Shown here: piece after piece, positions 3,950-22,534 of the stretch | Numbering within the stretch: the stretch's first letter is position 1 | Layout of the letters: every line of letters begins with the position of its first letter | Source: a virus | Reading direction: 5' to 3' (one strand) | IMG/VR virus record: IMGVR_UViG_3300025949_000091 | Coordinates: 1-23,882 of that record | Length of the DNA: 23,882 bases | Program-made: the position numbers and the translations under genes | The notes under the pieces: model-generated | Seen by the model: only the letters and a program-made list of their open reading frames with translations | What the model was told of the DNA's origin: nothing | Databases searched by the model: none

Positions 3950-4240
3950 ATGGACAACCTCCACGCCCTCCAGAAGCGCATCCAGGCCCTCACGCTATCC
4001 CGCGCGGCTCCGATCCCGACGCGCCACATACTTCTCTCACGCCCGCTCTCGCAGCCGTGGGACAAGGACCGGCCGGGTGAGTGGACGAACGACCCGGCCC
4101 GGACAGCGGCGGCGGCCTGGGTAGTCGTGGACTGGATCATGGCGCAGCCGGTGATACCGCCGGGGATGGCCGGGGCGCTGGAGCGGTGCGTGGAGACGCT
4201 GGAGACGATCATATGGACGGTGGAAGGGCGATGGCGATGA
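3950..4240 (+). CDS. Hypothetical protein
   Basis: Ninety-six residues beginning MDNLHALQKRIQALTL, with a predicted helix at the N-terminus, a Pro/Arg-rich middle and a tryptophan-containing helical second half (AAAAWVVVDWIMAQPV and ALERCVETLETIIWTVEG). AAGGA lies at 3939-3943, seven bases before the ATG. Its stop overlaps the methyltransferase start at 4237 by four bases, which supports both calls. No family is recognised. The downstream methyltransferase frame is open through this gene on another frame, but that extension is glycine/aspartate-rich and looks like a composition artefact. Confidence 0.6.
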   Translation: MDNLHALQKRIQALTLSRAAPIPTRHILLSRPLSQPWDKDRPGEWTNDPARTAAAAWVVVDWIMAQPVIPPGMAGALERCVETLETIIWTVEGRWR

Positions 4241-5328
4241 GTGTTCACATGGAGATAAGACCCGAAGTGGGACGGAAAGTTGCAGGCGGGGCGGAAATCA
4301 CGTCAACTCTTCTTTGCGGCGACTCACTGACAATGCTCCAAACGCTGCCAAGCGAAAGCGTTCAATGCTGTGTTACATCGCCGCCCTATTTCGGCCTGCG
4401 GGACTATGGCAACGATGGGCAGATCGGGCTTGAAGCAACGCCGGATGAGTATATCACCGCGCTTGTGGCCGTGTTTCGTGAGGTGCGGAGAGTGCTGAAG
4501 GCAGACGGGACGCTCTGGCTGAACCTTGGGGATTCATACGCAGCAGGTGGGAACGGGACATCAGAGCGTTACCAAGAAATGCGCGGACAGAAAACAGCAA
4601 CGGCGCAAAACTTGCCTCGCAAAGTTGCACCAGCCGGTATGAAACCGAAAGACCTTGTTGGCATCCCCTGGATGGCCGCGTTTGCCCTTCGCGCCGATGG
4701 TTGGTACCTGCGCTCAGACATCATCTGGGCCAAAGAAAACCCGATGCCCGAGAGCGTCATGGACCGCCCAACCAGGTCACACGAATACCTGTTCTTGCTC
4801 ACGAAGTCCGCAAGCTACTACTACGACCACGAGGCCATCAAAGAGCCTGCGGTATCGACACATGGCAGCGGAAACGGGTTCGTGAGGGATGAACGACTGA
4901 CCATGAACGGGAGGGGCAGTGAGAAGCCGTGGACGCCAGGCAAGGGCGGAAAGAACTCGTTTAGAGGCCAGGGGCACTTCCGTGAATCCGCCGGCGGTCC
5001 CGCAAATCGCGAGGGTAGGGATATGCGCGATGTTGGGGCCGGCGATACCCGCAACAAGCGCGACGTGTGGACCGTCAACACGAAGCCATTCCCAGAGGCC
5101 CACTTCGCCACGTTCCCACCCGATCTCATAACGCCGTGCATCCTCGCAGGCTCCCGCGAATACGACACGGTTCTCGACCCGTTCAACGGCGCGGCCACAA
5201 CCGGCGTAGTCTGCAAGACACTTCAGCGGTCATACATCGGCATCGACATAAACCCGGATTACATCGAAATATCACGGCGACGATTAGCGAACACGCAAGC
5301 GCCGTTAGCTTTGGAATTCGCCTCATGA
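4237..5328 (+). CDS. DNA methyltransferase (beta-class, N4-cytosine or N6-adenine)
   Basis: A 363-residue S-adenosylmethionine-dependent DNA methyltransferase. The catalytic motif IV TSPPY lies at residues 47-51 near the N-terminus. The SAM-binding motif DPFNGAATTG lies at 314-323 and is followed by SYIGIDINPDYIEIS. This order (motif IV before motif I) is the beta arrangement. TSPPY is common in N4-cytosine enzymes and also in some N6-adenine enzymes, so the target base is not decided. Residues about 175-290, rich in Gly, Arg and Ser, likely hold the target recognition region. ATG 4237 is preferred because GGAAGGG at 4222-4228 is well spaced and the start overlaps the previous stop; ATGs at 4231 and 4249 are alternatives. 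No restriction endonuclease is adjacent, so it is an orphan enzyme, probably protecting phage DNA from host restriction or marking it. Confidence 0.9.
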   Translation: MSVHMEIRPEVGRKVAGGAEITSTLLCGDSLTMLQTLPSESVQCCVTSPPYFGLRDYGNDGQIGLEATPDEYITALVAVFREVRRVLKADGTLWLNLGDSYAAGGNGTSERYQEMRGQKTATAQNLPRKVAPAGMKPKDLVGIPWMAAFALRADGWYLRSDIIWAKENPMPESVMDRPTRSHEYLFLLTKSASYYYDHEAIKEPAVSTHGSGNGFVRDERLTMNGRGSEKPWTPGKGGKNSFRGQGHFRESAGGPANREGRDMRDVGAGDTRNKRDVWTVNTKPFPEAHFATFPPDLITPCILAGSREYDTVLDPFNGAATTGVVCKTLQRSYIGIDINPDYIEISRRRLANTQAPLALEFAS

Positions 5329-5621
5329 CCTACCGTGCCTGCCGCGTCTGCCACGAACGCGAAGAGACACACGTCGTCATGCGCGAGAAGACGACCGGGC
5401 CGATCCTGTGGAACGTGTGGACCTGCACCGAATGCCTGCCGCGTGTCGTGGAGAAGTGCGCAGCCGACGGCGAGACCGTTCGCGTCTTCGGGATCGCACC
5501 GGACCCTAACGCGAGGCCAAAGCTGACACTTGAACAACTACGCGCCCACGAACGCACGCAGCGCCGCCGACGAGACACGGCGGTGACCGCGCACCTGGCG
5601 CAGATGGAGATGGAAGCATGA
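5325..5621 (+). CDS. Small zinc-ribbon protein
   Basis: Ninety-eight residues. Two CxxC knuckles are visible, CRVC at residues 6-9 and CTEC near 34-37, separated by a beta-hairpin-like segment, so a zinc ribbon is likely. The C-terminal half is highly charged and helical (EQLRAHERTQRRRRDT), suggesting nucleic-acid contact. The ATG overlaps the methyltransferase stop (ATGA) and the stop overlaps the next start, so it belongs to the operon. No specific family is recognised; a DNA- or RNA-binding accessory role is an inference. Confidence 0.7.
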   Translation: MTYRACRVCHEREETHVVMREKTTGPILWNVWTCTECLPRVVEKCAADGETVRVFGIAPDPNARPKLTLEQLRAHERTQRRRRDTAVTAHLAQMEMEA

Positions 5622-6909: not shown

Positions 6910-7718
6910 CCATTAACGAAGACGGTACCAGTATCAAAGGTTGCTCGTATATCTATGCGCCAAAAGGGCAGGCGGGTGAATACGCGCCGCTTGCAGCAAA
7001 CCCTTACCGGGGATGCGGCCACAAATGCGCTTACTGTTATGTTCCCCAAGTCCTTAGAATGGACCGCGGGGAGTTCAACGCAGGCGCGGTCGAGCGCCCG
7101 GACTTTCTGCGCAACGTGACTGCGGATGCGGCCAAATACCAAGCTGCTGGCATTACCGAACAGGTTATGCTTTCATTCACAACAGACCCCTACCATCGCG
7201 ACGACACATCACTGACACGTCAGACGCTCGAAGTCCTGCGAGAACACGGACTCGGCTTCTGCACGCTCACAAAGGGCGGCACGCGGGCGCTGCGCGACAT
7301 CGATCTATTCCGGCCCGATCGCGACGCATTTGCATCAACGCTGACAAGCCTTGACGATGCCTTCAGCCTGAAGTGGGAAGGCGGCGCGGCCCTACCGGGC
7401 GACAGGATCGAAGCGCTCAAAGCGTTCCATGCCGCCGGGATCTTCACATGGGTTTCCTTAGAGCCTACCCTTGACTGCGAATCGAGCAAAGCCGTCGTCC
7501 GCGCCACGCATGAGTTTGTGAACCTCTACAAGGTCGGCCGCGTGAACTACTTGCCCATGACAAAAACAACGGATTGGGAGACGTACACCCACGAAATGAA
7601 TGCCTTGATGGACGATCTTGGCGCAGCACATTATATCAAAAAGGACCTGCAAGAGTTCCTGCCGGAAGGCTATTCAAACCCTATTCGTGTGAAGCAGCAC
7701 CATGGAGCGAAGGCGTAA
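6906..7718 (+). CDS. Radical SAM protein, spore photoproduct lyase-like
   Basis: A 270-residue radical SAM enzyme. The iron-sulfur cluster motif is C37-x3-C41-x2-C44 within NPYRGCGHKCAYCYVPQVLR, the form seen in the SplB/Rv2578c-like branch. Following segments match the SAM barrel: FTTDPYHRDD, LGFCTLTKGGTRALRDID, and a glutamate strand WVSLEPTLD. Spore photoproduct lyase repairs thymine dimers; many relatives are unassigned. The protein is shorter than SplB (about 340 residues) and I cannot confirm the SplB hydrogen-donor cysteine, so DNA repair is a hypothesis. A tRNA- or nucleotide-modifying role is equally possible. It starts within the resolvase stop (ATGA) and shares its operon, which favours a DNA-directed substrate. 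Confidence 0.82.
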   Translation: MTINEDGTSIKGCSYIYAPKGQAGEYAPLAANPYRGCGHKCAYCYVPQVLRMDRGEFNAGAVERPDFLRNVTADAAKYQAAGITEQVMLSFTTDPYHRDDTSLTRQTLEVLREHGLGFCTLTKGGTRALRDIDLFRPDRDAFASTLTSLDDAFSLKWEGGAALPGDRIEALKAFHAAGIFTWVSLEPTLDCESSKAVVRATHEFVNLYKVGRVNYLPMTKTTDWETYTHEMNALMDDLGAAHYIKKDLQEFLPEGYSNPIRVKQHHGAKA

Positions 7719-9223: not shown

Positions 9224-9315
9224 GAACATAAGAACATGTGAGATATTAGGAACTATCGAACAGTATTTTACAGCTATTGGTTAGAGACACAGCGTAGCGA
9301 GAAAGGTTGCACAGG

Positions 9316-9612
9316 ATGGCAGAACAGCAGAAAAAACCCATTAAGGTAACGGTAACGGAAGTCAAGCCGATAGATTGGGGCAGCATGCGGGCGTTCGCTA
9401 CGATCCAGATCGGGCCGGTCACGATCAAGGAATGCCGGCTTGTGAAGGAAGAGAATAAAACCGCGTGGGTGTCGCCCCCGCAAAAGACGTGGGACAAAGG
9501 CGACGGCAAGAAGGGCTATGTCTCACTCGTTCAGTGGCCGCAGGAATGGAACGACGCCATAAACGCCGCCGTGCTTGCCGCCTACGCCGAAGCTACCGGG
9601 AAAGGTCTTTAG
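9316..9612 (+). CDS. SpoVG-like protein
   Basis: 98 residues. The sequence follows the SpoVG family layout: a first strand IKVTVTEVKPID, then MRAFATIQIGPVTIKECRLV, a strand-turn WVSPPQKTWDKGDGKKGYVS with the SPP(Q)K element where SpoVG has MPS, and a C-terminal helix EWNDAINAAVLAAYAEA. SpoVG proteins are small nucleic-acid-binding regulators; in phages they often stand before replication genes, as here. GAAAGG at 9301-9306 is nine bases before the ATG at 9316; a TTG at 9307 is too close to it. It is the first rightward gene after the control region and is followed directly by the primase, so the two are probably co-transcribed. Confidence 0.65.
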   Translation: MAEQQKKPIKVTVTEVKPIDWGSMRAFATIQIGPVTIKECRLVKEENKTAWVSPPQKTWDKGDGKKGYVSLVQWPQEWNDAINAAVLAAYAEATGKGL

Positions 9613-12375
9613 GTGTCTGTTGTGGACGTAAAGAAAGACCCGGACCGGAAACCGCCGACGTTAACGGTGCTGCCTGACGGAATTCCCGCGCTCCTGCGCA
9701 GTCGTGCGAAGTGGGTCGGCTGGCGCTGGGAGTGGCGTGAGGGATCATGGACCAAGCCGCCAATCAACCTGCGCACCGGCGGCAACGGCAGCTCGACGAA
9801 CAAGAAGACTTGGAGTACTTTCGAGAAGGCTGTTGAGGTCTATCAGAACCCGCATCGGGGATTCGCCCTGGACGGCATAGGCTACGCGCTTGAAGTGTCC
9901 GACGGGATTGTTGGCATGGACTGGGATCATGTGTTTGATCCGGTGACAGGTGAAATCCTGTGCGATACAGCAGAGGGTGACGCGCGCACGATGGACACCT
10001 ATATCGAACTCTCGCCCACGGGGGGCGCGTACCGCGGATTCGCGCTCGCTGACCTGCCGCCCGCCGAACGACGGGCGGGGAACTTCGAAATCTATAACTG
10101 TGGGCGATATCTCACATGCACCGGGCACAAACTCGCGTTCGCGCCGGAGACCATCGAGATCCGTCAAGAGCAAGTAGACGCTTACCATGCGCATGTGTTC
10201 AAGGATCGCATCGCCCGGAAACGCGAAGTCAAGCGCGGGCGGCCGCGCGCCGGCGGACCGATGAACCTTTCCGATTCGCAGCTCATCGACGTAGCGCGCG
10301 GAGCTCGGAACGGCGCGGCATTCTCGGCACTGTTCGACAGCGGCAGCCTCGCGGCCTACGGAGACGATCATTCGGCGGCGGATCTCGCGCTGTGCAACTA
10401 CCTCGCGTTCTACGCGGAAGGCGACGAAATGCGGATCGATCGACTGTTCCGCCAAAGCGCGCTCATGAGGGAGAAGTGGGAGCGCCCTGATTACCGGACG
10501 TGGACCATCGAACTTGCCGTTTCAGGACGCACCGAGTTCTACCATCCGCCAGGAACGGAGCAACCGCCAAGGCACCCAAAACCGCCGACGCCGGCACCGC
10601 CGCGCGGACATGACGGCCCGCCTGTCGACGACTTCGAACCGCAAGGTTCCGACCTTTTGGGAGACGCGACACCGGAGCAGGAACCGCTTGATCCCAGGTT
10701 TATTGACGGGCTGCCCTACATCGAAACGAACCGCCGGGAATACCGAACGATCGCCGACGAAATGCTTCAAGCACTCGTAGACGCCAACGATCCGCCGACG
10801 GTATTTGTCCGCGCCGGGAAGCTCGCCCGCGTGCAGACCGTCGAGGAGAAAGGAAACACGTTTGCCCAGATCCAGAACCTGAACGCCTCCATGATGAGGG
10901 ACCGGCTTTCGCGCGTGGCGAACTTCGTATCGACGTCGGAGAAGCGCGGCACGGTCCCCGTAGCCCCTCCCGCAGGCCAGGTGGAGGATTTGCTATTCCG
11001 TCCGCATTGGCCCGGGATCGCCCTGCTCAACGGGATCGTGACCGCGCCAATCGTCGGCTATGACGGATCGATCACGGCGGCACCCGGTTACCACGCGAAT
11101 GCGCGGCTTTACTACTTCGCGGAGAAACCGCTAGACATCGCGGACACGACGCCCACCAAAGAGAGGGTTGCAGCGTCGGTGGCGCTCTTGCTCGACGACA
11201 TGCTCGCCGACTTCCCGTTCGTTGACAGAGCCTCGCGCGCGCACGCGCTGGCGTATATCCTATTGCCGTTCGTCCGGCTGCTCATCAACGGCCCGACGCC
11301 GCTGCACATCATCGACGCGCCGAAGTCGGGAACGGGAAAGACGCTACTTGCCCTCGTCTGCTCCGCGCTGTTCGTCCCCGGCGGCGCGCCAGTCAAGACG
11401 TGTCCGCAGACAGAAGAAGAATGGGCGAAGGTTCTGACGACGTTCCTGATCGAAGGCGACTCGCATATCCTGCTGGACAATGCCCGCTATCTCAACTACG
11501 AAACTTTGTTCGGCGCGCTCACGTCGCCGGCATGGAAAGACCGCGTGCTTGGCTTCTCGGAGAGCGTACGCATTCCGATAAAGCTTGTATGGGCTGCGAC
11601 ATCGAACAACCTCGCAGGCAACGACGAGCTAAACCGGCGCTCGATCATGATCCGAATGGACGCCCAGGTCGAGACGCCATCAGAGCGGGACGGCTTTCAT
11701 CATCCCGACATCATGGGCTGGATCGCACAGGAACGGCCTCGTTTGGTGTCGGCGGCACTGACTATTATCCGCGCATGGATCGACGCCGGAAGGCCAGCAT
11801 ACAGCGGAGAAAACGGCACGATCGGGAGCTTCGAAAGCTGGATCGCGGTCATTGGCGGCATTCTGGAAACCGCCGGCGTAGACGGATTCCTCGGCAACCG
11901 GGAGGAACAAAAGAAGCAAATCGACAGCGAAGGGGATGTTTGGACGGGATTTATTGCCCAATGGTATGAGCGATTTAATACCAGTAAGGCGACAACGGGG
12001 CAATTAATTGATTTAGCGCGGCCGTTTTTGGCAGACAAAATCGAGTCAAAAAGCGAACGCGGCGAAATGACAAAACTCGGAAAATTATTGCAGAAATACA
12101 ATAATCGGATTTTTTCCGGGATGAAAATCGTGGCAGATGGAAGGGATTCCGGTGGAATTCAGTGTTATCGGTTACGAAATGCTGGATTAACAGGGACTTC
12201 TGGGACTTCTGGGACTTTACCCGGCCTATACGGGGAAGTATCCGGTAATGATTTAAATACAGCCAATAATACGCAATCGGAATTAAATAATAAAACAACA
12301 GATACTACCCCTATAGCGGCTGGAAATGTCCCTTACGTCCCAGAAGTCCCAGTGCGCCGAACGGAGGTCTTTTAA
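9613..12375 (+). CDS. Primase-polymerase / helicase, NrS-1 polymerase-like
   Basis: A 920-residue replication protein. The N-terminal primase-polymerase domain (about 25-205) has WVGWRWEWREGSWTKPPIN, GIVGMDWDH with the metal-binding pair D103 and D105, and NFEIYNCGRYLTCTGH (E159). The next block, about 218-310, matches the helix-bundle domain of NrS-1-type polymerases (ADLALCNYLAFYAEGD, IDRLFRQSALMREKWERPDY). After a Pro-rich linker comes an ATPase/helicase domain with Walker A PKSGTGKT at 570-577 and Walker B HILLDN (D622). The motif usually reading SPSGxGLH is SPTGGAYR (134-141), so the expected histidine is not where I look for it. GTG 9613 directly follows the TAG of the previous gene, with AAAGG at 9601-9605. 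The last 70 residues are low complexity and encoded by AT-rich DNA with repeats. Confidence 0.85.
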   Translation: MSVVDVKKDPDRKPPTLTVLPDGIPALLRSRAKWVGWRWEWREGSWTKPPINLRTGGNGSSTNKKTWSTFEKAVEVYQNPHRGFALDGIGYALEVSDGIVGMDWDHVFDPVTGEILCDTAEGDARTMDTYIELSPTGGAYRGFALADLPPAERRAGNFEIYNCGRYLTCTGHKLAFAPETIEIRQEQVDAYHAHVFKDRIARKREVKRGRPRAGGPMNLSDSQLIDVARGARNGAAFSALFDSGSLAAYGDDHSAADLALCNYLAFYAEGDEMRIDRLFRQSALMREKWERPDYRTWTIELAVSGRTEFYHPPGTEQPPRHPKPPTPAPPRGHDGPPVDDFEPQGSDLLGDATPEQEPLDPRFIDGLPYIETNRREYRTIADEMLQALVDANDPPTVFVRAGKLARVQTVEEKGNTFAQIQNLNASMMRDRLSRVANFVSTSEKRGTVPVAPPAGQVEDLLFRPHWPGIALLNGIVTAPIVGYDGSITAAPGYHANARLYYFAEKPLDIADTTPTKERVAASVALLLDDMLADFPFVDRASRAHALAYILLPFVRLLINGPTPLHIIDAPKSGTGKTLLALVCSALFVPGGAPVKTCPQTEEEWAKVLTTFLIEGDSHILLDNARYLNYETLFGALTSPAWKDRVLGFSESVRIPIKLVWAATSNNLAGNDELNRRSIMIRMDAQVETPSERDGFHHPDIMGWIAQERPRLVSAALTIIRAWIDAGRPAYSGENGTIGSFESWIAVIGGILETAGVDGFLGNREEQKKQIDSEGDVWTGFIAQWYERFNTSKATTGQLIDLARPFLADKIESKSERGEMTKLGKLLQKYNNRIFSGMKIVADGRDSGGIQCYRLRNAGLTGTSGTSGTLPGLYGEVSGNDLNTANNTQSELNNKTTDTTPIAAGNVPYVPEVPVRRTEVF
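12193..12352 (+). repeat. Tandem and inverted repeats in primase 3' end (origin candidate)
   Basis: Three tandem 9-base units start at 12193 (GGGACTTCT, GGGACTTCT, GGGACTTTA). Sixteen bases of this array (12200-12215) recur as a perfect inverted copy at 12337-12352 (GTCCCAGAAGTCCCAG). The intervening 121 bases are AT-rich with long A/T runs. Iteron-like repeats beside an AT-rich stretch inside a replication gene are how many phage origins look; the protein read-through is only GTSGTSGT and VPYVPEVP. Confidence 0.5.
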
Positions 12376-14613: not shown

Positions 14614-14835
14614 ATGGACAACACTGCGCCCACGCCCCCGACCTACCGGGAGCCCGCCACCGTCATCCGCGAGTGGCTCGACCACCTGCGCACGAAGGAC
14701 CCGGCGCTCAGGATCAAGGATCGCGAAGTGGCCGAACTCGTGGGCGTGTCCTACGACCAGGTGAAGCGCTTCCGCTCGACGGACCGGCGGCACTGGGGCG
14801 GGGAGCGGAGGCGAAGGGGTGAGCACAATTCATAG
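14614..14835 (+). CDS. Small HTH protein
   Basis: 73 residues. GGAAAGGA upstream of the ATG supports the start. After a Pro/Thr-rich leader there is a helix (ATVIREWLDHLRTK) and a helix-turn-helix-like segment at about 33-57 (IKDREVAELVGVSYDQVKRF), with an Arg-rich tail. It would bind DNA, perhaps as a regulator of this small-gene cluster or of the RNA unit downstream. The call is by pattern only. It overlaps the next gene by 17 bases. Confidence 0.5.
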   Translation: MDNTAPTPPTYREPATVIREWLDHLRTKDPALRIKDREVAELVGVSYDQVKRFRSTDRRHWGGERRRRGEHNS

Positions 14836-15131: not shown

Positions 15132-15160
15132 TTGCTTGAGAGCTTGCGACGTGCTAAAAT
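15132..15160 (+). promoter_or_regulatory. Promoter candidate for the tRNA/ncRNA unit
   Basis: TTGCTT at 15132-15137 and TAAAAT at 15155-15160 are separated by 17 bases. The -10 matches TATAAT in five of six positions, the -35 in three. Transcription would start near 15167, about 90 bases before the tRNA. The surrounding 15089-15256 holds no gene; a palindromic ACCGGT occurs twice (15192-15197 and 15210-15215). Confidence 0.4.
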
Positions 15161-15256
15161 GTAGGTGTTCGTACGCGCTCCATTGATTGACTCTTCCTGT
15201 AAACCGGTTGCGGTAACGTGACCGGTGAGGGGTGGGGCAAGGGCGGACAGTTTTGA

Positions 15257-15328
15257 CGCGGGGTAGCTCAGTGGTAGAGAGGGTCACTCATAACGATCAA
15301 GTCGCCGGTTCGATCCCGGCCCCCGCTC
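15257..15328 (+). tRNA. tRNA with anticodon CAT (Met or Ile type)
   Basis: A 72-nt cloverleaf. Acceptor 15257-15263 (CGCGGGG) pairs with 15321-15327 (CCCCGCT) except position 1-72. The D arm is GCTC-AGTGGTA-GAGA with one end mismatch. The anticodon stem GGTCA/CGATC has a wobble and an A-C mismatch next to the loop CTCATAA, with anticodon CAT at 15289-15291. The T arm is perfect: GCCGG-TTCGATC-CCGGC. CCA is not encoded. CAT with an unpaired 1-72 end recalls an initiator tRNA, but the anticodon stem lacks the initiator GGG/CCC pairs; a tRNA-Ile whose C is modified is also possible. The mismatches may mean a decaying phage tRNA. Confidence 0.75.
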
Positions 15329-15340
15329 TTAGATGGTTTC

Positions 15341-15710
15341 CGGCCATCAGTCGGTATCGTTCAACAGACGATCAAGAAAATAGGACGGCTGCCGGTACCA
15401 CCCAAACGCGCTGCATGGGGCGCGGAGGCAGCTATGCGGGCTGGAGAATCGGGAGACCCGCTACCGACTGAAGATTTTGACGGGGTTCGATCCAAGTAAG
15501 ACGCTGGCAGACGTGTCGGAGATATAGGTGCAAGTCCTATCCCCTGTCCCAGTATAACGATCCTCCCCCGCTGGGTGGCCGTGAGACGGCGAAAGTACAA
15601 TGCGGTGACACAGGGGAACAGAATCCCTGACCTTTTCGACAGCCGGAAGAGACCGGCGCACAATTCCAACGCTTCCAGAAGCTGAGCGGCCGAAAGGCGA
15701 GAGCTTCACC
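15341..15710 (+). ncRNA. Candidate large structured non-coding RNA
   Basis: No plausible protein gene covers this stretch, and the three-frame reading gives only tRNA-shadow ORFs. Complementary segments are dense. A perfect 10-bp stem joins 15347-15356 and 15462-15471, enclosing GCTGCC/GGCAGC (15388-15393 with 15427-15432), CGCGC/GCGCG (15407-15411 with 15420-15424) and CGGG-AGA-CCCG (15450-15460). A second domain is closed by CCCCTGT/ACAGGGG (15541-15547 with 15610-15616) and holds CCCAG/CTGGG (15548-15552 with 15571-15575) and GCCGT-GAG-ACGGC (15578-15590). A third has GCCGG/CCGGC (15642-15646 with 15653-15657) and GAAGCT/AGCTTC (15678-15683 with 15702-15707) around a GCC-GAAA-GGC hairpin. 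It follows a tRNA and ends at a strong terminator, like the large ornate RNAs of phages. No known family is recognised. Confidence 0.55.
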
Positions 15711-15712
15711 GC

Positions 15713-15755
15713 AGTGACACCGGAAGGTTTTTTACCCTTCGTGTGTCACTTTTTT
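15713..15755 (+). terminator. Strong intrinsic terminator of the RNA unit
   Basis: AGTGACAC at 15713-15720 pairs perfectly with GTGTCACT at 15743-15750. The inner part CGGAAGG/CCCTTCG extends the stem with one irregularity around a T-rich loop, and a run of T follows at 15751-15755. It ends the tRNA/ncRNA transcript and isolates it from the packaging genes. Confidence 0.85.
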
Positions 15756-15773
15756 CATGCCAGGGAGTTTGAT

Positions 15774-16723: not shown

Positions 16724-16935
16724 ACCACGACCCCGGCACCTCCGCAGGCGTCCGCCCTTGCACGCACTGCCACTGCGACCGCCCGACGATCCACGACGTT
16801 TGTGGCGGCCTCGTGGTGATCACCTGCGCCGTCTGCGGTCATCGGCTGGCGACTACCGGCCGGGTGCGGGAACTTGAGGCGGTGGCGGCCGAGGTGGTGA
16901 ATCGGGGACGGATGGTGAGAGATGGCAGACGTTGA
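16720..16935 (+). CDS. Small zinc-ribbon protein
   Basis: 71 residues starting at ATG 16720 inside the preceding stop. Two Cys pairs are visible, CTHC (residues 14-17) and CAVC (near 36-39), with further Cys/His at CHCDR, fitting a zinc ribbon. A basic helical tail follows (RVRELEAVAAEVVNRGRMVR). It overlaps the small terminase gene by 14 bases. It may be a packaging accessory because of position, but no family is recognised. Confidence 0.55.
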   Translation: MNHDPGTSAGVRPCTHCHCDRPTIHDVCGGLVVITCAVCGHRLATTGRVRELEAVAAEVVNRGRMVRDGRR

Positions 16936-17422
16936 GAAAACGAAGTGGGGGCGAATCCCTGGGCTGAGTAACGAGATCATCGATAAGATCGCCGCCGCGC
17001 TCACCAACGGCAACACGCGAAGGTCTGCGGCCAATGCGGCCGGCGTCCCGTGGCGCACGTTCACCTTCTGGATGGCGCGAGGCCGCCGGGAGGACGAGGC
17101 GCGCAACGGTGACACCAACCCGGAGACGCAGACGATCTATATCGACCTGCTTTACGAGGTCGAGTTTGCCGAGTCCCGGGCCGAGCGGTACATGGTCGAT
17201 CTCGTTTACAAGGGCGCGGTGAGTGATCCGAGGATCGCTATCGAGTGGCTGAAACGGCGGCGAAAGACGGATTGGTCCGAGCGTGTCGAGAGTACCGGCG
17301 CGGACGGTGGGCCGATTGCTTATAATCTGTCGGGACTCTCCGACGACGAACTCGAACAGCTCGCCGCGCTGAGGGCGAAGATCGATGCAAACACTGCCGT
17401 CGATGGCGGAAATACAGGCTGA
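16922..17422 (+). CDS. terS: Terminase small subunit
   Basis: 166 residues. The N-terminal DNA-binding domain has a helix-turn-helix of the terminase small-subunit type (EIIDKIAAALTNGNTRRSAA followed by AGVPWRTFTFWMARGRRED). Next comes a coiled, charged oligomerisation part (YIDLLYEVEFAESRAERYMV), the element DPRIAIEWLKRRRKTDWSER, which is typical of this family near the end of the DNA-binding core, and an acidic C-terminal peptide that would contact the large subunit. Role: recognising phage DNA to start packaging. It lies directly before the large terminase, overlapping it by 38 bases, the usual order. The assignment rests on pattern plus context. Confidence 0.8.
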   Translation: MADVEKTKWGRIPGLSNEIIDKIAAALTNGNTRRSAANAAGVPWRTFTFWMARGRREDEARNGDTNPETQTIYIDLLYEVEFAESRAERYMVDLVYKGAVSDPRIAIEWLKRRRKTDWSERVESTGADGGPIAYNLSGLSDDELEQLAALRAKIDANTAVDGGNTG

Positions 17423-18878
17423 GCGGGCGAGGCGTGGCATTCGTGTATATCGTCCGAGTTATCTGGATTATCTCAAGGCGACGGTCCCGGCGTCATGGAC
17501 GACAGACCCGAAACACATCCATGTAATTGCCGAGCACCTCGACGCTGTAGAGCGTGGCGAGATTGACCGCCTGGCGATTCATATGCCCCCTCGGCATGCG
17601 AAGACGGAAACGGTCACTGTGCGGTATGCCGCCTACTGCCTGGAAAATGAGCCTGCCGACAACGTCCTGATCACCGGCTACAACGAGCGATTTTCTCGAC
17701 GCCTCAGTCGTAAGGCTCGGACTGTCGCATCAAGCCGTATTAAACTTGCCAGCGACAAGAAGGCAGAGGACGAATGGGCGACACCGGAAGGTGGCGTCAT
17801 GATGGCGCGCGGCGTGGGCTCGCCGCCAACCGGTACGGGCTTCCGTCGCATCATTATCGATGACCCTATCCGACGGCGCGAGGATGCCGAGAGCGAGACC
17901 TATCGCGAGAAGGTTTGGGACTGGTACACGGACGACCTGTATACGCGCTTGGAGCCCGGCGGCGCGATTGTCCTGGTCATGACGCTATGGCATGAGGACG
18001 ATATCGGCACTCGCGCAGTTGCGTCGGAACCCGGCCGGTGGACGGTGTTAAAACTGCCCGCCATTGCGGAAGAAGACGACTTACTCGGGCGTGCGCCAGG
18101 CGAAGCGCTTTGGCCTGCCCGTTATACCGTCGCCGATCTCAAGCGCATCAAAGACGTTCTGACTCAGAACGAGGGCGAACGGTCATGGCTGGCTCTTTAT
18201 CAGCAGCAACCGACGGCGCGCGAAGGCGCATTCTTCAAGGTCGGACAGTTCCGGTTTATTGATGGCGTGCCTCCGGTCGTTCGATCCGTACGGGCGTGGG
18301 ATATCGCGGCGACTGAGAATGACGGGGACTATACGGCAGGTCCGAAAGTCGGATTACAAGCAAACGGCCGGTATGTGGTTATGGACGTTGTTCGCGGGCG
18401 ATGGGCGACCGACGAGCGCAACCAACGTATTCGTGAGACCGCCGAGATGGACGGCACGACGGTGCGAATCCACGGGCCGCAAGATCCCGGCGCGGCTGGT
18501 AAGGATGCGGCCCAGGCGTTCGTTCGGATGCTGGCCGGATTCCCTGTCCGGTGTGAACCGGTTTCCGGGGCAAAAGAACTTCGCGCGGATCCGTTCTCCG
18601 CGCAGGTAAACGCTGGGAATGTCGATATCGTGCGGGCCGATTGGAATAGCGCCTTTATCGAAGAGTTGCGCGCGTTCCCTGGTGGAAAGTATGACGACCA
18701 GGTGGACGGCGTGAGTGATGCGTTTACGGACTTAGCGACCGGGCGTGCAGGACTATCAGCCGCCGCCGGAAACACTCCAGTCACGATGCCGCGGACTGTC
18801 AATGTTCCCGCCTACACTCCCGGCCGGCTTCCCGCCGCGCCCGGTAACCCCTTCGCTTCAGCCATGCCCAGGAGATAA
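17385..18878 (+). CDS. terL: Terminase large subunit (packaging ATPase-nuclease)
   Basis: 497 residues. The ATPase domain has a variant Walker A PPRHAKT at 68-74, Walker B RIIIDDP with D159 and D160, and the coupling motif TLWHEDD at 200-206. The nuclease domain (RNase H-like, Terminase_6C type) begins at WDIAATEN (D306) and ends with GKYDDQVDGVSDAF (D437, D438, D441), where the metal-binding acids are expected. The protein threads DNA into the prohead and cuts the concatemer. ATG 17385 has GAGG/GAAG upstream; ATG 17403 is the alternative but lacks a ribosome binding site. The PPRHAKT form is shared with terminases of Mu-like and several prophage heads, agreeing with the DUF935 portal next to it. 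Confidence 0.92.
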   Translation: MQTLPSMAEIQAERARRGIRVYRPSYLDYLKATVPASWTTDPKHIHVIAEHLDAVERGEIDRLAIHMPPRHAKTETVTVRYAAYCLENEPADNVLITGYNERFSRRLSRKARTVASSRIKLASDKKAEDEWATPEGGVMMARGVGSPPTGTGFRRIIIDDPIRRREDAESETYREKVWDWYTDDLYTRLEPGGAIVLVMTLWHEDDIGTRAVASEPGRWTVLKLPAIAEEDDLLGRAPGEALWPARYTVADLKRIKDVLTQNEGERSWLALYQQQPTAREGAFFKVGQFRFIDGVPPVVRSVRAWDIAATENDGDYTAGPKVGLQANGRYVVMDVVRGRWATDERNQRIRETAEMDGTTVRIHGPQDPGAAGKDAAQAFVRMLAGFPVRCEPVSGAKELRADPFSAQVNAGNVDIVRADWNSAFIEELRAFPGGKYDDQVDGVSDAFTDLATGRAGLSAAAGNTPVTMPRTVNVPAYTPGRLPAAPGNPFASAMPRR

Positions 18879-22486: not shown

Positions 22487-22515
22487 AGGTCACTCCTTAC
22501 GGGGTGGCCTTTTTG
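22487..22515 (+). terminator. Intrinsic terminator between decoration and capsid genes
   Basis: AGGTCACTCC at 22487-22496 pairs with GGGGTGGCCT at 22501-22510 (all pairs, including two G-T), loop TTAC, then TTTTT. The stem is strong. It lies 31 bases downstream of the decoration stop and 24 bases before the capsid ATG. Confidence 0.75.
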
Positions 22516-22534
22516 TTTGGGGCAGGAGAAAACA

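Follow-up and report, generated by a model that had tools for sequence, protein, structure and literature searches.

What is the function of the gene-free stretch at positions 15341-15710 of this uncultured phage? The original prediction read it as a large structured RNA lying between a tRNA and a terminator, and suggested that it could be a new phage RNA class. The window, by which we mean the whole stretch of DNA analysed, is 23,882 bases long and constitutes a complete IMG/VR virus record. Its family-matched genes lie on the + strand and run from exonuclease VIII, RecT, a DNA methylase, RuvC and a primase, through a series of small genes, to the region itself and then to the terminase subunits (TerS and TerL), the portal and the major head protein. 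Since replication genes precede the region and TerS, TerL, portal and head genes follow it, we place it where the early genes give way to the late ones. The features that we refer to are the following.

14614..14835, + strand: gene of 73 aa, weakly matching HTH_23 (E 0.019, below the curated cut-off)
15132..15160, + strand: candidate promoter TTGCTT-17-TAAAAT, with CGACGT immediately 5' of the -10 box
15203..15226, + strand: leader hairpin ACCGGUUGCG-GUAA-CGUGACCGGU, 10 pairs with a GNRA-type loop
15257..15328, + strand: tRNA-Met (CAT), 69.3 bits, CCA not encoded
15347..15471, + strand: possible four-way junction closed by a 10-bp stem, energy marginally below chance, no homologue found
15480..15551, + strand: degenerate tRNA or tRNA-like 3' end (T-arm, acceptor strand and CCA; 12.2 bits)
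15540..15617, + strand: 8-bp stem TCCCCUGU/ACAGGGGA, in a region where stems of at least 7 bp are at chance number
15663..15712, + strand: conserved leader tail, common to positions 4216-4259 of a second viral contig, L082
15713..15755, + strand: intrinsic terminator (8-bp stem, 5-bp inner stem, UUUUUU), with a counterpart at the same place in L082
15774..16181, + strand: P3, 135 aa, TTG start after an AGGGAG ribosome site, 56% identical to L082 P3
16922..17422, + strand: TerS, terminase small subunit
17385..18878, + strand: TerL, terminase large subunit, with the portal and major head protein behind it

Elsewhere in the window, a 101-aa ORF directly 5' of the primase (9307-9612) has a weak SpoVG match (E 0.0011, under the cut-off). 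Within the primase gene, at its 3' end (12190-12353), lies an inverted repeat of 53 nt that is imperfect overall and contains one exact pair of 16 bp, CTGGGACTTCTGGGAC / GTCCCAGAAGTCCCAG; the repeat could be an origin or a regulatory site.

The frame of the region is as originally described. Family search finds no gene in 15341-15710, and codon-position counts identify its tail as non-coding; the tRNA in front is the tRNA-Met listed above, and the terminator behind it is a strong one (stem 15713-15720/15743-15750, U-tract 15750-15755). The individual helices are also real: the 10-bp stem 15347-15356/15462-15471 is perfectly Watson-Crick paired, and the GCC-GAAA-GGC hairpin is present. The closing stem that had been given as 7 bp (15541-15547/15610-15616) exists as well, although its true length is 8 bp (15540-15547/15610-15617). 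What is not confirmed is that these complementarities exceed chance: both the stem counts and the fold energy are near chance level. In fact, the region contains two perfect Watson-Crick stems of at least 7 bp (within 150 nt) against 1.65 expected from dinucleotide shuffles, and a stem of at least 10 bp arises in 2.7% of such shuffles and in 7 of 128 other 370-nt segments of the contig. The minimum free energy of the whole interval 15330-15755 gives z = -1.25 with the terminator counted in. A contig-wide folding scan of 366 segments of 130 nt ranks the terminator end (15601-15730) 8th with z -2.58 and the first part (15341-15470) 26th with z -1.98, while the centre (15471-15600) ranks 331st with z +1.37, i.e., it folds worse than chance.

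With the Rfam covariance models, tRNA is the sole match at the gathering threshold, one chance match lying on that tRNA is added at E<=10, and neither GOLLD nor ROOL is found. Searches of phages, plasmids and IMG/VR yielded no homologue of 15341-15640, and in a pattern scan of IMG/VR with an unpaired segment of this larger part all matches were judged from their context to be chance. L082, which has the tail, the terminator and the following gene, shows no detectable similarity to 15341-15640. Candidates for a group I intron, a tmRNA or an introned tRNA (low-threshold ARAGORN) were many, weak and mutually overlapping, and we did not believe them.

Could 15341-15710 nevertheless represent a novel phage RNA, large, structured and freed as a molecule of its own by tRNA processing and by the terminator? 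Its non-coding character, its site between tRNA and terminator, the inner helices that abut directly inside the 10-bp stem and the occurrence of GOLLD and ROOL near tRNAs (PMC12286853) would all suit such a molecule, but with stems and energies close to chance, no Rfam match, no homologue found, a portion that is a tRNA-like remnant and a relative, L082, that shares the tail yet has nothing similar, we regard it as quite unlikely. A large ornate RNA class of the GOLLD or ROOL type is not supported here. From the proposal of a new phage RNA class, what survives is a plausible non-coding RNA that would extend from the promoter across the tRNA to the terminator, and of which the last ~95 nt are conserved.

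The tRNA-like piece occupies the centre of the supposed large RNA. It consists of a perfect T-arm with a 5-bp stem and a 7-nt loop (ATAGG-TGCAAGT-CCTAT, 15524-15540), an acceptor strand of seven bases (15541-15547) and an encoded CCA (15549-15551); in shuffled sequence this combination is expected at a rate of 0.03 per contig. Under a tRNA covariance model made from 13 phage tRNAs, the window's own tRNA-Met among them, and scored unfiltered on both strands, 15480-15548 scores 12.2 bits and is the second-best match of the contig (E 0.069 over the whole contig and 0.0017 over the leader). The exact T-arm 18-mer occurs at 34 places in IMG/VR, and at ~20 of these ARAGORN calls a tRNA on the spot or adjoining. 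Compared with the tRNA family (RF00005), the piece thus shares the T-arm, acceptor strand and CCA; it differs in that a normal D-arm and a seven-base anticodon loop are absent, in that it falls under the RF00005 and default ARAGORN thresholds and is called by neither, and in the G at T-loop position 55, a base that intact phage tRNAs also show there. Because the normal D-arm and anticodon loop are absent, we interpret 15480-15551 as a decayed tRNA or tRNA-like structure and not as a working tRNA.

Several readings of this piece have to be weighed. The spacer in front of the terminator might be no more than a small decaying tRNA array, with one intact and one or more degenerate members and no role of its own. 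The second rank of 15480-15548 under the tRNA model, the rarity of a T-arm with an encoded CCA and the tRNA calls at the 18-mer places all speak for tRNA ancestry, yet this accounts for only ~70 of 370 nt and leaves out the conserved tail, and the contig-wide E value of 0.069 is suggestive only. As a full explanation we find the array unlikely; it can, however, coexist with the late-leader reading developed below. Alternatively, the T-arm, acceptor and CCA piece could be the attP core of a temperate phage, copied from the 3' end of a host tRNA gene. Such cores do frequently copy tRNA 3' ends, and the T-arm is tRNA-like, but no integrase was found among the window proteins tested and integration at 15480-15551 would split the promoter from the late genes, which renders this origin extremely unlikely. 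Finally, a tRNA-like minihelix (acceptor, T-arm and CCA without a D-arm) might have been retained for a purpose and form, with the module of P3, tail and terminator, a new kind of late-gene switch. Such a minihelix could draw RNase P, or some other factor that binds tRNAs, to the nascent leader and so couple processing to terminator readthrough. We consider this very unlikely.

Tracing tRNA-like elements in other phage contigs brought out a few further observations. Two related phage contigs, L144 (14093-14200, - strand) and L164 (3835-3945, + strand), have in common an intergenic element of ~90 nt whose T-arm is the same as that of the window, followed by ACCATGC and a conserved GCAGTAGCAA. 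Its minihelix reads GGGTG/CACCC in L164 and GGGCG/CGCCC in L144, a compensatory change, and the element, which has no Rfam match, is a small tRNA-like structure without a D-arm or anticodon arm. In L150, near 7298-7315 (- strand), one gene of a phage tRNA array resembles a tRNA interrupted by a long insertion (acceptor GAAGGGT / ACCCTTC-ACCA). Behind it comes an extended region to which Rfam has no match, and a group I intron lies elsewhere in that locus. L134 carries at 5490-5590 (reverse-complement coordinates) an odd tRNA-like gene, GGGAGTG...CACTCCC; its T-arm is regular, and ARAGORN makes no call for this gene.

Conservation is found at the other end of the region. Positions 15664-15758 of the window are 68% identical to L082 4217-4303 (E 6.6e-5 in the L082 record), and the shared sequence includes GCTTC-yA-GAAGCT-GAG...AGAGCTTCACC and a terminator. 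The tail contains three arms, GCTTC (15671-15675), GAAGCT (15678-15683) and AGCTTC (15702-15707), that allow two mutually exclusive pairings. Pattern scans of IMG/VR for the tail recovered L082 (again as L086), with the remaining matches judged chance from context, so that one true relative of the tail is known and it is represented by two sequences altogether. Differences within it are spread evenly over the codon positions (same/different 20/15, 20/15 and 24/11), whereas P3 and its L082 counterpart differ mostly at third positions (44/86). We therefore conclude that conservation of the tail acts at the level of RNA or DNA and not of protein. Coding across the terminator, which tblastn implied by carrying the P3 frame upstream, was rejected on the basis of the codon-position counts and of a stop in L082.

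P3 itself has no family match. Its sole relative in 2.9 million viral contigs is the L082 protein; none was found among phages and plasmids, and the only GTDB match, L093, lies antisense to another gene and was rejected. The N-terminus appears HTH-like by eye only, and the AlphaFold model is of low confidence (pLDDT 50.6). P3 is not TerS, which is encoded at 16922-17422.

L082 and the window are significantly similar over the tail, terminator and P3 only (52.9% across 172 aa). Besides overlapping-frame shadows of P3, the other protein match is a stretch of 28 aa in the TerS region (E 4e-4). The replication, terminase and portal genes of L082 match families different from those of the window, and nothing in the L082 record matches the window primase. 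Because L082 is otherwise dissimilar, the short TerS stretch aside, the tail, terminator and P3 look like a jointly moving unit, and sequence comparison suggests that they travel together as a module. L082 has this unit without a tRNA and without anything like 15341-15640: from its promoter box to the tail there are only ~110 nt, holding one 11-bp hairpin. It follows that the large part of the region is dispensable for the role of the shared unit. What is conserved, tail plus terminator, suggests a role in regulating the late genes that follow and not a large RNA.

One form of such control would be local. P3 could bind the tail and set termination, which would make the tail an autoregulatory attenuator of P3 and not a late-operon switch worked by another factor. 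The co-occurrence of tail and P3 in two phages that are otherwise unmatched apart from the TerS stretch, and three arms capable of alternative pairing, speak for such a circuit; against it stand a protein with no family match and a low-confidence model, and two examples only. We regard autoregulation by P3 as improbable.

The position of the terminator is more telling, and was overlooked in the original prediction together with the tRNA 3' end likeness at 15480-15551: it stands directly before a gene. From the end of the U-tract (15755) to the start codon of P3 (15774) there are 18 nt, which leave no room for a promoter, and P3 must therefore be transcribed through the terminator. The packaging and late genes behind P3, on the same strand, are probably read through it as well. 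Our scan gives only two strong + strand terminators in the 23.9-kb window, and in the same scan the L082 counterpart is the only terminator in the 4.5 kb before the L082 late genes. A similar arrangement is seen in L002 (TerL 57% identical), where a near-perfect promoter, TTGACA-17-TAAAAT, is followed by a leader of ~130 nt, a terminator and then the late genes, and L004, a further TerL relative, has a terminator close 5' of its late genes. Over 36 TerL-related loci we counted 33 terminators within 3 kb upstream of terL and 6 in a 3-kb stretch after it; the loci are related and their counts non-independent, so we take this as support and not as a test.

The second strong intrinsic terminator of the window (22488-22515) is located immediately 5' of the major head protein ORF, which starts at 22517.

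At the upstream end, the candidate promoter at 15132-15160 has a counterpart in L082, TACACA-17-TAAAAT, that carries the same CGACGT and agrees with it at 13 of 16 bases. This likeness is modest, as 13/16 is reached by 3 of 60 shuffles; the window contains TAAAAT two times, and the 10.7-kb L082 locus a single time. By sequence likeness, CGACGT between -35 and -10 is a candidate factor-loading site. No -10-like pause element was recognised by eye in 15161-15185, the predicted initial transcribed sequence. The interval 15164-15256, which holds the leader hairpin, folds with z -2.89. L082 likewise encodes a 73-aa HTH protein before its promoter box (HTH_36, E 1.4e-4, below the curated cut-off); it and the 73-aa protein of the window are not alignable to each other. 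We also note CGCTCTTA at 15322-15329, overlapping the 3' end of tRNA-Met, with a 5-bp hairpin after it; this is the lambda nut boxA sequence, and may be a coincidence.

Taken together, we favour the region as the untranslated leader of the phage late (packaging and head) operon under antitermination or attenuation, to which we give a probability of roughly 0.6. Within this late-leader reading we infer the use of the promoter, the readthrough, the factor and how far the operon extends; that P3 shares its transcript with the genes that follow is suggested by gene order and strand only. Transcription would start at the 15132-15160 promoter, and the polymerase would then cross the hairpin, the tRNA-Met gene, the decayed tRNA-like piece and the spacer, to stop by default at the terminator. 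The tRNA would be cut out of this short, terminated transcript. Given an antitermination signal, the polymerase would instead cross the terminator into P3 and, probably, the terminase, portal and capsid genes. Most likely, the signal would be a phage-encoded protein that loads at the promoter in the manner of lambda Q, 21Q, AlpA or GafZ; alternatively, the tail could act as a switch in which arm 2 pairs either with arm 1 or with arm 3. The terminator could also simply be leaky, free of any regulation. Among the window proteins tested against Pfam and PHROG, no Q- or N-family antiterminator gene is recognisable. Should a new antitermination factor be at work, one would look first at P3 or at the small HTH protein encoded upstream.

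Most of what had been observed in the region is accounted for by the decayed tRNA-like piece together with the conserved terminator leader. The junction at 15347-15471, slightly more stable than chance, is covered by neither. In sum, chance stems and a tRNA-like remnant can mimic an ornate RNA, and the claim of a giant RNA becomes that of a testable late-gene switch in an uncultured phage.

How does this arrangement compare with known systems? Like the region, GOLLD and ROOL are phage-encoded and close to tRNA genes, and a Met-tRNA is located upstream of GOLLD env-38 (PMC12286853). The region differs from them in being shorter, in its near-chance folding and in having no covariance-model match. 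The Caulobacter GTA cluster, with GafY/GafZ and terGTA (PMC11150451), and AlpA (PMC9371919) offer precedents in which a promoter-loaded factor lets transcription bypass a terminator placed inside a late or lysis unit. There, too, differences exist: terGTA sits after the first gene and is built of three 150-bp repeats, and a homologue of either GafZ or AlpA was not recognised in the window. With the pR'-6S RNA-tR' system of lambda, governed by Q, the locus has in common a candidate late promoter, an untranslated leader and an intrinsic terminator right before late genes. The lambda 6S RNA is also close in length to the L082 leader, ~200 nt. The window leader is longer (~590 nt) and carries a tRNA, no Q-family match was found among the window proteins tested and no pause box was seen by eye, and P3 comes first, followed by genes toward terminase and not by lysis genes. 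Since no Q-family antiterminator gene matched among the proteins tested, we do not class the locus as a Q system. The Q architecture at late promoters is a precedent for promoter-loaded antitermination, and the conserved DNA between its -35 and -10 (PMC6606751) may have a parallel here in the CGACGT shared with L082; by analogy, the locus may work like a Q system.
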